From NCBI RefSeq assembly GCF_003555545.1, contig NZ_CP032157.1, positions 4,840,546 to 4,904,545 on the forward strand: a stretch of DNA of 64,000 bases, written 5' to 3'. The stretch comes from Paraflavitalea soli. Its GTDB lineage: Bacteria > Bacteroidota > Bacteroidia > Chitinophagales > Chitinophagaceae. The notes under the pieces were generated by a model that saw only the letters and a program-made list of their open reading frames with translations, did not search any database and was not told the DNA's origin. Shown piece by piece: positions 2,578 to 43,724 of the stretch. Within the stretch, counting starts at the first letter, position 1, and the number at the start of each line of letters is the position of its first letter. The position numbers and the translations under genes were made by a program.

Positions 2578-3600
2578 ATGCCATCAATTATTGAGTTCAC
2601 CGATAAAGGTCTTTACTGCCCGGCAGGTCAATTTTATATCGACCCCTGGAAGCCTGTAGACAAGGCCTTTATTACCCATGCCCATAGCGACCATGCAAAG
2701 CCTGGCAATAAATATTATCTCTGCCACCGCGACACACTGCCCATGCTGCAGCTAAGATTGGGCGACAATCACTATCAAAGCATTGGCTGGAACGAATCCC
2801 TGTACATGAATGAGGTAAAAGTATCACTCCATCCTGCAGGTCACATCATCGGCTCCTCACAGGTAAGAGTGGAACACAAAGGAGAAGTATGGGTGGTGAG
2901 CGGCGACTACAAAACAGAGAACGATGGCATCAGTGGTGCTTTTGAACCCGTACCCTGCAATACTTTCATCACCGAATCAACCTTTGGTTTACCCATCTAT
3001 CACTGGAAACCCCAGGAAGCCATATATACAGATATCCGCAACTGGATCCACAGCAACCAATTGGCAGGCAAAACATCCGTCTTAATTGCTTATAGCCTGG
3101 GCAAGGCCCAACGCGTACTGAAAGCAGTAGCAGAGATCACCGGCAATATTTTTGTGCATGGCGCCATCTGGAACACCCACCAGGTATTGACACAAGCTGG
3201 CTGGCGCCTGCCCGATGTAATACGCGTAACACCCGAGCTTCCCAAAGAAGCCTTCAAAGGCCAGGTGGTGATCGCCCCACCCTCAGCCGATGGCACCCCC
3301 TGGATGCGCCGTTTTGCGCCTTACAGTGTAGGCGTTTGCAGCGGCTGGATGCAGGTAAGAGGACATCAGCGCAGAAGGAATGCCGATGCCGGATTTGCCC
3401 TGAGCGATCATGCAGATTGGAATGGTCTGCTGGAAGCTGTAAAAGCTACCGGTGCAGAAAAAGTATTTGTCACCCATGGATTTCAATCCGTATTCAGTCG
3501 CTACCTCAATGAACAGGGTATTGCCGCAGGAGAGGTAAAAACAGAATATGGCGCAGAAGAGGAAGAAGCAGTAACCGAACCGGAAAAGGCAGATGAGTGA
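2578..3600 (+). CDS. Ligase-associated DNA exonuclease, metallo-beta-lactamase fold
   Basis: 340 residues. The metal-binding motif HAHSDH (residues 34-39) near the N-terminus, the later HPAGHIIGSSQV, GDYKTENDG and SDHADW segments place it in the MBL/beta-CASP nuclease group. The family known as ligase-associated DNA exonuclease is encoded beside an ATP-dependent ligase, a DEXH helicase and a PdeM phosphoesterase. It presumably trims DNA ends before ligation. Its stop overlaps the start of the ligase gene by 8 bases, so the two are translationally coupled. The C-terminus is acidic (EEEEAVTEPEKADE), probably disordered. Family assignment rests on motif plus neighbourhood and is strong; the exact DNA substrate is not shown by the sequence. 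Confidence 0.92.
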   Translation: MPSIIEFTDKGLYCPAGQFYIDPWKPVDKAFITHAHSDHAKPGNKYYLCHRDTLPMLQLRLGDNHYQSIGWNESLYMNEVKVSLHPAGHIIGSSQVRVEHKGEVWVVSGDYKTENDGISGAFEPVPCNTFITESTFGLPIYHWKPQEAIYTDIRNWIHSNQLAGKTSVLIAYSLGKAQRVLKAVAEITGNIFVHGAIWNTHQVLTQAGWRLPDVIRVTPELPKEAFKGQVVIAPPSADGTPWMRRFAPYSVGVCSGWMQVRGHQRRRNADAGFALSDHADWNGLLEAVKATGAEKVFVTHGFQSVFSRYLNEQGIAAGEVKTEYGAEEEEAVTEPEKADE

Positions 3601-14316: not shown

Positions 14317-14741
14317 GCCCTTATCAGGGCCCATAAATTACCCAAAACATGTAAAGCTGGCGCGCGCCCAAAAAAAGATTTTTACCCATCCGCATTACTT
14401 TGGGTGTCCCGCCCGCCCATCCAGGTCGCCAGGTAAGCCCTAAAGCTGGTACCAGCTACCTGATTTTGACACATTAACATTTTTATTTTTTTGTATCCCG
14501 GCTTAAAATGAGCAGGCTGTATCCGCTCAAAACCTTGCCTGCTGCGGGTAAGCACTTAGATCGCAAAAATATCCTGCAGATGGAGCGCCGCTAACTACCA
14601 ACCGGTCAACCAGCAGCACTCACTCCCACCGCTTTTCCTTACCTTTGACGTCCTGTCAAATTGGCTCGTTATCAAAGTATAGCACCTTTTTTGACGGCTA
14701 GAGATTCATTAATCTTGTAAACATCTCAACCAGCTATAATC
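14317..14741. other. Intergenic region upstream of secA
   Basis: About 425 bases without a credible ORF. It contains a self-complementary AGCTGGTACCAGCT (14444-14457) flanked by CAGGTA and TACCTG, a full -7 box TACCTTTG at 14640-14647, and a second weaker box (TAATCTTG, 14710-14717) with TTG 16 bases upstream. No known structured RNA was recognised; the SRP and tmRNA core motifs were looked for and not seen. Confidence 0.6.
14640..14647 (+). promoter_or_regulatory. Candidate -7 promoter box of secA
   Basis: TACCTTTG fits TAnnTTTG exactly and would give a leader of roughly 90 bases for secA. No clear -33 TTTG precedes it. An imperfect alternative sits at 14710-14717. Confidence 0.4.
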
Positions 14742-39963: not shown

Positions 39964-40797
39964 TTAAGAATTAAAAGCGGATTGAATGGGTTGACGGTTA
40001 GTAACAATGGCCTTGTACAGCAGTTCAAGATCTATCCTGCTCTCTTCACCATCCATATTGGGGGTAATGATCGCATTGCCACGCAGGGAACTTTCACTGT
40101 ACAAAGCATGTCTTACTTCCTCCTGGTCGAATGAAATACGGAACGACAACTTGCGGGAGATATCTTCGATGGTCTGGTCAAACAGGATCGCACCCTCATC
40201 GATAATGGTGATCCGGTCTATCAGGTTTTCCAGGTCCTTTACCTGGTGGGTACTGATGATCACACATTTGTTTTCATCGATAGCACCGGCCATAACCTTG
40301 CGAAACTGGCTTTTACTCATGATATCCAATCCATTGGTTGGCTCGTCCATCAACAACACGGAAGTATTGCAGGCAAGGCCAAAACTGATGAGTACTTTCT
40401 TTTTCTGCCCATAACTCATACTCTCGAGTTTGGTATCGACCGGGATCTCAAACTCCAGGATATATTTGCCAAACTGTTGCTGATTGAAACGGGGATAAAA
40501 GGGCGATAGGTTATTCACCAGTTGCTGCAGGGGAATATTGGGCAGGTAAAACTCTTCGGGTACCATAAATACTTCCTGCAAAAAGGCCGGCTGGCGCTTG
40601 CCCGGCTCAAAGCCCATTACATCAATACTGCCCTGGTCGGGAAACAAAAGGCCCGCAATATTGCGCAGCAGGGTCGACTTGCCTGTGCCATTCTTGCCCA
40701 GTAAGCCGTAAATATGGCCGGGTTGTAACTGCAGGCTCAATCCCGTAAATACCTTTTTCTTACGGTAGCCAAAGTGCAATTGTTGAATATTGACCAT
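39964..40797 (-). CDS. ABC transporter ATP-binding protein, first gene of the operon
   Basis: 277 residues. Walker A is LLGKNGTGKSTLLRN, the signature region is MSYGQKKKVLISFGL, Walker B is VLLMDEPTNGLD, and the H-loop lies in IISTHQVKDLE. It is of the YhcG/YtrB type often found with a GntR/YtrA regulator. The promoter and operator just upstream indicate that the six-gene operon starts here. Confidence 0.93.
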   Translation of the reverse strand: MVNIQQLHFGYRKKKVFTGLSLQLQPGHIYGLLGKNGTGKSTLLRNIAGLLFPDQGSIDVMGFEPGKRQPAFLQEVFMVPEEFYLPNIPLQQLVNNLSPFYPRFNQQQFGKYILEFEIPVDTKLESMSYGQKKKVLISFGLACNTSVLLMDEPTNGLDIMSKSQFRKVMAGAIDENKCVIISTHQVKDLENLIDRITIIDEGAILFDQTIEDISRKLSFRISFDQEEVRHALYSESSLRGNAIITPNMDGEESRIDLELLYKAIVTNRQPIQSAFNS

Positions 40798-40810
40798 GTT
40801 TGGTGTTTTA

Positions 40811-40832
40811 GTGTACTACTTAAATAGTACAC
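40811..40832. promoter_or_regulatory. GntR operator: 8-bp inverted repeat
   Basis: GTGTACTA (40811-40818) and TAGTACAC (40825-40832) are perfect inverted arms around CTTAAA. The last base overlaps the -7 box of the minus-strand promoter, and the dyad covers the expected transcription start, so a bound dimer would block transcription. Confidence 0.85.
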
Positions 40833-40862
40833 AAACATACCAATACTGCTCCAACTTCCAAA
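40832..40862 (-). promoter_or_regulatory. Promoter of the six-gene ABC operon
   Basis: On the minus strand, TTTG (40862-40859), a 19-base spacer and TATGTTTG (40839-40832) reproduce the Bacteroidota -33/-7 promoter. The start of transcription should fall near 40826, inside the operator. Confidence 0.82.
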
Positions 40863-41396
40863 TCTTTTTTAGAATTTTCTCTTACCGTTTATCCATTTGC
40901 AGTGTTATGCATTTACAATCAATCGATTAAGACTACTAACTCATTTTTATCCAGGTAAGATCTTAATACACAGGAACCTGCCTTGTACCCTATCCAGCTG
41001 TATGGCCCCGCCATCGTAAGATCTTCCCTTATTGTCTTTTGATTCGTACCATATCCGGTTCTGGTATACGGATAAACCGTAGATAAGCCGTATATAACCT
41101 GTATATAAGCCGTAGATAAGCTGTCCTTTTAAGAGACGGCTTATCTACGGCTTAGCTATGACTTAAGATTAAATTAATTACTACTTACCCCAAAACAAGA
41201 GTTGAATAAGGGGCGCTCAAGACCGGAGAAACCCACCCAGTGGGCTTACCAATATTAGCCTTGTCTTTACCTAACTGGCAGATTAACACCTGTCTATTAT
41301 AATTACCTTAAATTGCACGCCTGTTTTTATGGCGGGAAGGCCAATCAACCAAATATCCCAAACCACCCTTCCCAGCCCTCTGATTAAAATATAAGT
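40863..41396. other. Divergent intergenic region between the ABC operon and maeB
   Basis: About 530 bases with no credible gene. It holds the 11-bp tandem repeats and inverted copy (41077-41153). Nothing else is recognised; no clear -7 box is seen directly before maeB. Confidence 0.65.
41077..41153. repeat. Four 11-bp tandem repeats facing an inverted copy
   Basis: Consecutive units at 41077, 41088, 41099 and 41110 read CCGTAGATAAG, CCGTATATAAC, CTGTATATAAG and CCGTAGATAAG. An inverted copy (CTTATCTACGG) is at 41140-41150. Bases 41107-41125 and 41135-41153 form a 19-bp stem with one mismatch and a 9-base loop. Confidence 0.92.
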
Positions 41397-43724
41397 ATGA
41401 AAAAAGAATTTATTAGAGAACAGGCGCTGGAGTACCATGCCAAAGGAAGACCCGGTAAAATAGAAGTAATCCCCACCAAAGAGACCAAAACCCAAAGAGA
41501 CCTCTCTCTTGCCTACTCGCCCGGAGTAGCCGAACCTTGCAGAGAAATTGAAGCCAACCCGGAAGCAGTTTATAAATACACCGCCAAAGGCAACCTGGTA
41601 GGCGTGATCAGCAATGGCACCGCTGTACTGGGCCTGGGAGATATTGGTCCCGAGGCCGGCAAACCCGTGATGGAAGGCAAGGGCGTACTCTTCAAAATAT
41701 TTGCCGATATCGACGTATTTGATATTGAGATCAATGAGAAAGACCCCGAAAAGTTTGTACAGATCGTGAAAGCGCTGGAGCCCACTTTCGGAGGTATCAA
41801 CCTGGAAGATATCAAGGCGCCTGAATGCTTTTACATTGAGCAAAAGCTGAAGGAGCAGATGAAGATACCGGTGATGCACGACGACCAGCATGGCACCGCC
41901 ATCATCAGCGCGGCCGCCCTGCTCAACGCTGTGGAGATCCAAAAGAAAAAAATAGAGAAGGCAAAGTTTGTAGTGAACGGAGCCGGCGCTTCGGCCATGG
42001 CCTGTACCAAACTGTACATAGCGCTGGGTGCTAAGAAAGAGAACATCCGGATGTTTGACAGCAAGGGGCTTATTCATGAAAGCCGTACGGACCTGGATGA
42101 TATGAAGAAAGAATTCCTGAGTACCGGTAAAAATCTCTCCCTCACGGAAGCCCTGGTAGATGCCGATGTATTTATAGGTCTCAGTAAAGGAAATGTACTC
42201 AGTGCCGAAATGGTGAAGTCAATGGCCAAAAATCCCATTGTATTTGCCATGGCCAATCCCGATCCGGAGATCACTTACGAAGCAGCTACCTCCGCCCGCA
42301 AGGATATCATCATGGCCACGGGCCGCAGTGATTATCCCAACCAGGTAAACAATGTACTGGGATTTCCCTTCATTTTCCGCGGCGCGCTCGACGTACGTGC
42401 CACACAGATCAACGAAGCCATGAAGCTGGCTGCTGTAAAAGCGCTGGCCGAACTGGCACGCACACCTGTACCCGATATTGTAAACCTGGCCTATAACCAG
42501 AACAACCTGGCATTTGGCCCCGAATATATTATTCCCAAACCGGTTGACCCTCGTCTCTTATCTACCGTAGCACCTGCCGTGGCCAAAGCTGCTATCGAAA
42601 GCGGTGTAGCACAGATAAAGATCGACAATTGGGAAGCCTATGCTATTGAACTGGAAAAACGCCTTGGTCAGGACAACCAGGTAATGCGTATCCTGGGCAA
42701 TAAAGCCCGCCGCGATCCAAAACGTATTGTCTTTGCCGAAGCAGATAACCAGAAGATCCTGAAAGCTGCCCAGATCGCATTTGAGGAAGGCATTGCCTAT
42801 CCCATACTGCTGGGTGATGAGAAAAAGATACGTGCCATTGCCAATGCTATGAAGATCGACCTGGATGATATGCCCATTATTGATCCACGCAGTGACGATT
42901 ATGAGGAGCGCAGGAAGATCTATGGCGACCTGTTCTTTGAAAAAAGAAAACGCCGCGGTGTAAACCGGTATGAGGCTACCAAGATGATGAAGGACCGCAA
43001 CTATTTTGGCACCATGATGGTGGAAACCGGCGATGCCGAAGGGATGATCTCGGGCCTTACCCGTAATTATCCTGAAACCATTCGTCCGGCCCTGCAGGTG
43101 ATCGGGACGGAGCCTGGCGTAAAGAAGATTGCCGGTATGTACCTGTTGCTTACCAAACGCGGCCCCATCTTTATGGCCGATACCACGGTCAACTTCAACC
43201 CCACAGCGGAAGAGCTGGCTGATATTACCCTGATGGCAGCCCAGGAAGTAAGGAATTTCAACCTGGTGCCCCGCATTGCTATGCTCAGCTATTCCAACTT
43301 TGGCAGCAGTGACTCACCCGAAGCCAAGCTGGTATCAAAAGCGCGTGATATAGTAAAGCAGAAAGACCCTGGTTTAATTGTAGATGGTGAAATGCAGGCC
43401 AGTATTGCCTTTAACCAGGAGATCATGAAAGAAAGCTATCCTTTCAGTGAACTGATCGATCAGGAAGTGAATACCCTCATTTTCCCCAACCTGGCAGCCG
43501 GCAACGTGGCATACAATTTACTGAAAGAAGTAGGGGGTGCAGAAGCCATTGGCCCCATCCTGCTGGGATTGAAGAAACCGGTGCATATCCTGCAGCTGGG
43601 CAGCTCAGTAAGGAGCATTTACAATATGGCATTGATCACGGTGATCGATGCACAACTGAAATGTAAGGGCAATGCGGGTGAGGCCAGCCAAAAACCTCAT
43701 TGGTGGAAGAAGGCAAAAAAATAA
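41397..43724 (+). CDS. maeB: NADP-dependent malic enzyme with C-terminal phosphotransacetylase-like domain
   Basis: 775 residues. It decarboxylates malate to pyruvate, yielding NADPH. The malic enzyme part (about 1-420) shows [48 protein letters not shown] and [10 protein letters not shown]. The C-terminal part (about 430-765) resembles phosphotransacetylase ([45 protein letters not shown]) and in the family regulates the enzyme by acetyl-CoA rather than acting as a catalyst. A weak hairpin follows the stop. It is transcribed away from the ABC operon. Confidence 0.95.

Follow-up and report, generated by a model that had tools for sequence, protein, structure and literature searches.

The 11-bp repeat array before maeB of Paraflavitalea soli is one copy of a dispersed intergenic element

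A row of adjacent 11-bp repeats with an inverted counterpart lies before maeB in Paraflavitalea soli, and it raises the question of whether such an array belongs to maeB, as the operator of a neighbouring gene would, or is something more general. We found it to be one copy of a dispersed intergenic repeat of approximately 121 bp (length by reading), which consists of five units, an AT-rich centre and an inverted arm of at most five units, all in one 11-bp register. Paraflavitalea has a whole class of such arrays, of which the element is a member, and the family of the maeB array is also present in Chitinophaga.

Architecture of the array before maeB

The window, meaning the whole stretch of 64,000 nucleotides of contig NZ_CP032157.1 that was analysed, contains the array in a divergent gap of 599 bp (40798-41396). 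The left neighbour of the gap is an ABC-transporter gene on the minus strand (39964-40797) and the right one is maeB on the plus strand (41397-43724), for which a domain search gave malic enzyme and phosphate acetyltransferase domains. The first arm consists of five contiguous 11-bp units on the plus strand (41071-41125), which read in order GATAAACCGTA, GATAAGCCGTA, TATAACCTGTA, TATAAGCCGTA and GATAAGCTGTc, with the consensus GATAAGCCGTA. It was identified from the sequence, from the alignment of the copies in the P. soli genome and from Tandem Repeats Finder, where its score of 67 was the highest among the 26 rows in the window. The pattern GATAAGCYGTA with at most one mismatch had nine matches in the window (1.85 expected), six of them inside the array. 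An AT-rich centre of 11 bp follows (CCTTTTAAGAG, 41125-41135), and the other copies of the genome have similar centres. The second arm is on the minus strand. Its inner part has two inverted units (41136-41157, tandem- and inverted-repeat analysis) and its outer part has, by eye, three remnants in 11-bp phase with little beyond TTA in common (41158-41190); this outer part is plainer in other copies, such as those at loci L050 and L197. The copy alignment also has a weak similarity on the plus strand upstream of the array (41050-41070) to some of the eight copies of the genome, with a consensus of approximately CCATATnCGGTTCTnGTTTTnGG.

The preliminary description of this locus had rightly reported adjacent 11-bp units and an inversion, but counted four units where there are five, and its span of 41077-41153 contained the array while missing the start of unit 1. 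The inverted copy that it took to be single is present and is part of two good units, with the phased TTA remnants extending to 41190. It also placed the array correctly in a divergent gap before maeB, although its 0.5 kb for that gap falls short of the measured length, and the hairpin it gave as 19 bp exists as a pairing of 20 bp with one mismatch (41106-41125 with 41135-41154).

This hairpin is predicted to be strong on either strand (z about -6). Folding of the 121-base stretch around it gave z = -6.1 on the plus strand, which none of 200 shuffles equalled. Such values would suit a transcribed RNA hairpin, that is, a terminator, an attenuator or a small RNA. Nevertheless, we consider this reading very improbable, both from the palindrome scores of the wider class given below and because neither neighbouring gene ends in a divergent gap. 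When 40798-41500 was searched against Rfam with E values up to 5, the 10 matches, mostly to microRNA models, all scored below the gathering scores of their families.

In the alignment of five species, a block before maeB on the plus strand (41243-41397) aligns in all five, and we infer that it is probably the promoter region of maeB. The array sits outside this block, within a fast-changing spacer. At the other end of the gap, directly before the ABC operon, there is a 44-bp near-palindrome (40800-40843), the core of which, GTGTACTACTTAAATAGTACACA, is identical in all five aligned species. Since a gene of a GntR-family regulator (PF00392, 38706-39077), presumably of the YtrA type, sits in the same minus-strand cluster as the ABC operon, the near-palindrome is probably the operator of that regulator.

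A dispersed family within a class of 11-bp arrays

A pattern search of the 8.44-Mb P. soli genome with at most three mismatches gave 64 matches, 39 of them in eight clusters, and the reversed pattern gave 4. Each cluster is a copy of one and the same element, has five units and is located in a gap between called ORFs. The array before maeB is not particular to that gene, being a member of a dispersed family; the proposal of the preliminary description to look for the unit elsewhere proved fruitful, as P. soli has seven further copies and more were found in Paraflavitalea and Chitinophaga. An exact 20-mer of a unit pair occurs in 33 stretches from a collection of 84,980 species' genomes, from which records of the P. 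soli genome were possibly excluded, and all 33 come from Chitinophaga, Paraflavitalea or one Bacteroidota MAG. All eight P. soli copies lie between 4408732 and 7831698 (4.4-7.8 Mb) of the 8.44-Mb record G000. As to a replichore or orientation pattern of the copies, the GC skew of the sampled stretches was so noisy that it gave no position for the replication origin.

In the alignment of the eight copies, most have the identical variant at the identical unit. Whole elements were therefore copied, since local slippage does not yield variants that match unit by unit. The mean identity among the eight copies is 0.94, compared to 0.84, 0.87 and 0.90 for three orthologous pairs of the family; copies within the genome are more alike than orthologous ones, so whole elements have been copied or homogenised, that is, kept alike or renewed. 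The family also prefers one unit number. Over 44 copies, in a count across species, it is five in 33, four in 5 and six in 3, and the remaining 3 continue through the centre. The count omits duplicates of other loci (L181, L182, L184, L191, L195, L196 and L198) and one array truncated by the locus end (L185).

The surroundings of the copies bear on the reading of the array as an operator, comparable to a CarH/MerR or OmpR-type array, through which a single regulator would control maeB or a regulon. In what was available of the source, CarH/CarA operators consist of 3-5 tandem 11-bp direct repeats, some degenerate, over up to approximately 55 bp, with one DNA-binding domain or protomer per 11-bp repeat and the motif nnnnTnnACAn (PMC9304148). 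The maeB array is like them in its tandem 11-bp direct repeats. It differs, as far as that source goes, in having no nnnnTnnACAn (by reading, the 11-bp period is present in the units and TnnACA is missing), in its inverted second arm, and in its dispersal beside genes that look unrelated, as judged for seven of the eight P. soli copies from translations read by eye. The repeats of the plasmid R1 parC site form two blocks of five. In the available part of PMC9426499 they are, like those before maeB, 11-bp direct repeats, bound by ParR with one protomer per repeat, and ten repeats flank the promoter according to the title of Dam and Gerdes cited there. However, parC is a plasmid partition site beside parM, whereas the present element has many chromosomal copies with inverted arms. 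Together with the different units before maeB in sister species (see below), the operator reading is left with a very small probability.

The family is part of a wider class. In 800 kb of the P. soli genome chosen by coordinate, we found 14 arrays of period 11, compared to 0 in locally shuffled sequence; for periods 10 and 12 the same sample had 0 and 3 arrays, respectively. A sample of 464 kb had 12 or 13 arrays, depending on the merging of neighbouring matches. The units differ widely (TTATAGAGCTC, ATACTGAAGGT, CCTTATCGAGA, CATCCTAGGGT and others), and the other array families are likewise multi-copy. Copy numbers of the 14 arrays lie between 3.0 and 16.6, half of them (7) at 4.6-5.7, and by eye one array family extends over approximately 15 units. 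Therefore, five units are a strong mode of the maeB-array family (33 of 44 copies) and a weaker mode of the class (7 of 14 arrays), and the conservation of unit number that the preliminary description had put up for checking is seen in most copies of the family across species and does not extend to the whole class. In a set of 41 arrays, the narrow lengths of which are partly favoured by the detection window, the palindrome score exceeded that of every shuffle in 21 and was no higher than the top shuffle in 20. A plain inverted copy or hairpin is thus not a general rule, which also argues against the transcribed RNA hairpin. By eye, several arrays rather have two arms with different units around a short centre, in a single 11-bp register.

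Could the rhythm alone be what counts? On a reading as a strong DNA-gyrase site or another DNA-wrapping site, only bending in helical phase would matter and the letters would be free as long as the 11-bp rhythm stays. The length and plan of the element do recall the E. coli gyrase motif, which the available part of PMC6379681 describes as 130 bp with a 36-bp centre, two 47-bp arms and a GC periodicity of 10.75 bp; both have about 130 bp, two periodic arms and a rhythm of about 11 bp. The unit of the maeB-array family also tends to an AT-rich half and a GC-rich half (p = 0.09 when taken alone). If bending or gyrase wrapping alone were at work, AT and GC should fall on opposite sides of the helix; over 18 unit sets, this segregation was no greater than in permuted units (p = 0.17). 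Moreover, the gyrase motif, as described in that part, is a degenerate GC rhythm without repeated units, whereas here the periodic arms reach an 11-bp centre instead of a 36-bp one, and bending does not require exact unit repetition. We thus regard this reading as improbable, if slightly less so than the RNA hairpin and the operator.

Placement and frequency were also compared. None of 18 copies of the maeB-array family lies between convergent genes (p = 0.10; L052, at a contig end, was left out). This does not hold for the class, since four arrays of other families in the 800-kb sample were called convergent, including those of L250 and L275, where the convergent neighbour is an inserted IS3 gene. 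Arrays were present in 10 of 77 P. soli gaps, a fraction that is inflated because 5 of the 21 P. soli stretches were picked for related pattern matches. Of 37 gaps with a length of 230 bp or more in 260 kb sampled from other genera of the same bacterial family, one had an array.

Arrays based on heptamers (periods 7, 14 and 21) also occur in the P. soli genome, for example at L074 (approximately 15890), L076 (approximately 9384), L078 (approximately 819) and L066 (approximately 393). Those of period 7 are commoner than the 11-bp ones (24 versus 14 in 800 kb), and the copy number of heptamer arrays spreads from 3.6 to 19.6. Two further dispersed repeats were seen. One, at L041 (approximately 3457-3586), may lie within a gene. 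The other has GAGGAGG-type units (L072, approximately 15840; L075, approximately 14500-14720; L266, approximately 14200) and is 76-83% alike over up to 250 bp, with GGGACGAA motifs in L072.

These counts bear on the reading of the array as a neutral minisatellite, in which slippage would make the direct units and hairpin-primed template switching would make and correct the inverted arm, neither being selected. Heptamer arrays being common, the variation of copy number across the whole class and the position of the maeB-gap array in a fast-changing spacer are all in its favour, as is the fact, shown below, that units within one array change together. Nevertheless, heptamer arrays spread widely in copy number while the maeB-array family is at five in most copies, period 11 outnumbers periods 10 and 12, and the variants that the eight loci have in common unit by unit are not given by local slippage. 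Several gaps also recur across species. In our ranking this reading comes third, as a rather unlikely one.

Recurrence at the same gaps in sister species

In order to locate the corresponding gaps in four sister species (G001-G004), flanking DNA was used, and six of the eight family gaps of P. soli were compared (maeB, L041, L042, L043, L044 and L047; L045 and L046 were left out). For five of them (all but L043), a sister array was present in 12 of 13 cases located by two flanks and in 5 of 7 located by one. Gap L043 had an array in none of the four sister species, each located by one flank, and for the six gaps together the values are 12 of 13 and 5 of 11, or 17 of 24, where some of the two-sided gaps (L042 in G002 and L047 in G004) are without a gene that is present between the flank matches in P. 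soli. As arrays occur in 10 of 77 P. soli gaps, some matches between species are to be expected. As a control, 19 random gaps with a minimum length of 230 bp were drawn from the sister genomes G001, G003 and G004, G002 being left out, and 2 had an array, which gives p = 4.8e-6 for the two-flank cases and p = 1.3e-4 for all family cases. At gap L069, which belongs to another array family, one of the three two-sided sister gaps contained an array and the single one-sided gap did not; with L069 included, the comparison is 18 of 28 versus 2 of 19 (p = 2.8e-4). Arrays thus recur at several gaps across species. Two gaps of the window that are free of arrays were likewise free of them at the orthologous loci of relatives, and one of these gaps aligns throughout and may be coding. 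At L235 and L236 arrays are present, but these are matches elsewhere in the genome and not orthologous gaps.

The arrays recur without their letters. Only 3 of the 17 sister arrays have the P. soli unit (L041 in G003, L042 in G003 and L042 in G001) and 1 has its variant. In the maeB gap, the unit is GATAAGCCGTA in P. soli, GATACAGCATA in G004, GATGCAGCATA in G002 and CATCCTAGGGT in G003, while in G001, by reading, two units left over from one family occur along with a different array. At L069 the unit core reads AGCG throughout the five-unit array of P. soli and AGAG throughout the five units of G002. Between species, all units of an array change in concert.

Recurrence and replacement could also come from a non-autonomous mobile element, MITE- or REPIN-like, whose arms would be bound by a transposase or recombinase from another locus and which would have no host function; reoccupied gaps would then be tolerated sites or the result of insertion into older arrays. 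Such an origin is possible, though we hold it to be doubtful, and it ranks second. The eight P. soli copies are dispersed, intergenic and without coding capacity, as those of a MITE are, and dispersal was in blocks with common variants. The outer ends TCAGGAAG...CTTCCTGA match in 3 of 7 aligned Chitinophaga copies (L187, L192 and L200), some Chitinophaga copies have flanks in common, and a given array family turns up at different gaps from one species to another. The mixed content of the maeB gap in G001 points the same way, as does the L069 gap, which is without an array and only 24 bp long in G004 and 63 bp in G001. A 2.4-kb duplicated segment, furthermore, bears an array together with an IS3-type transposase. 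On the other hand, no target-site duplication or clean empty site was seen, the sister flanks being too diverged and the L069 boundaries unclean, and a terminal inverted repeat beyond the arms is not apparent in the eight P. soli copies. Neither of the two Y1 transposase loci has an 11-bp array within approximately 1.5 kb, and the two ends of the 2.4-kb duplication are a terminator-like hairpin and a point approximately 100 bp from the array. Finally, arrays in 12 of 13 shared two-sided gaps are not predicted by chance insertion alone.

Two specific candidates were rejected. The genome has two Y1_Tnp loci that could have indicated a REP/RAYT system, and the surroundings of each, approximately 3 kb, contain no 11-bp array. 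A transposon bounded by the array was considered for the duplication of L250 (14858-17288; G000 3314858-3317288) and L275 (381-2804; G000 6400381-6402804), and the 2.4-kb segment does not end at the array. The two copies of this segment have 95% identity, with the IS3-type transposase (rve) beside the 11-bp array and the terminator-like hairpin at the far end.

Among the matches listed, the closest described system that we met is BrickBuilt of Porphyromonas gingivalis, a MITE with a 23-nt minisatellite unit and a leader and a tail with small inverted-repeat ends, the unit number of which differs between strains according to the available part of PMC4596501; as a MITE with a minisatellite it lends support to the mobile reading. 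It resembles the 11-bp element in being an intergenic tandem minisatellite within a small dispersed element of Bacteroidota, in its predicted long stem-loops and in having several loci common to strains (PMC4596501). The present element differs from what is described there in its 11-bp units, mostly five in the maeB-array family, and in having, at one and the same gap, different unit sequences in different species. REPs, palindromes of 20-40 bp linked to RAYT transposases in what was available of PMC3733652 and PMC3116915, share with the element, as do BIMEs and REPINs, the plan of short dispersed intergenic palindromes in many copies. Unlike REPs so described, the 11-bp arrays have approximately 121 bp and do not adjoin the Y1 transposase loci of the genome. 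By comparison with these descriptions, we file the array as a dispersed intergenic repeat element outside any named family; a published description of such arrays was not among the matches listed in a literature search without most subscription journals.

A possible protein-binding platform

The reading that we place first, tentatively and ahead of a purely selfish element and neutral slippage, is a platform to which a protein would bind cooperatively, one subunit for each helical turn, and which has spread as a repeat element. An 11-bp step near one helical turn, rows that are often of five and two arms in register suit such cooperative binding. Cooperative binding had already been suggested for this array in the preliminary description; the mostly five units of the family and the 11-bp phase kept across differing units agree with it. 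The hairpin is not general. Each arm would then be a row of putative binding sites, and the bound subunits would form a cooperative nucleoprotein complex. The unit sequences are too different for a single sequence-specific protein to read them all easily. As mainly the geometry is kept, the array families may be read by different related proteins, or by one protein of loose specificity. Within spacers the arrays may serve as architectural or insulating blocks, at the present locus separating the ABC-transporter gene from the divergent maeB. Renewal would come about through replacement of an old array by a copy from its own family or a different one.

A more far-reaching version, which we offer as a speculation of low probability, is that the arrays are a bacterial counterpart of satellite turnover, in which co-evolving proteins would read units spaced by one helical turn, and sites would persist while the recognition sequence is swapped wholesale from a library of array families.

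In practice, such arrays should not be taken for operators of the neighbouring gene. If the pattern holds, geometry separates from sequence in these spacers, where the gaps and the 11-bp rhythm persist while the letters turn over. The arrays would then point to an undescribed chromosome-organising or regulatory complex in Bacteroidota, or to a mobile element of unusual site fidelity.
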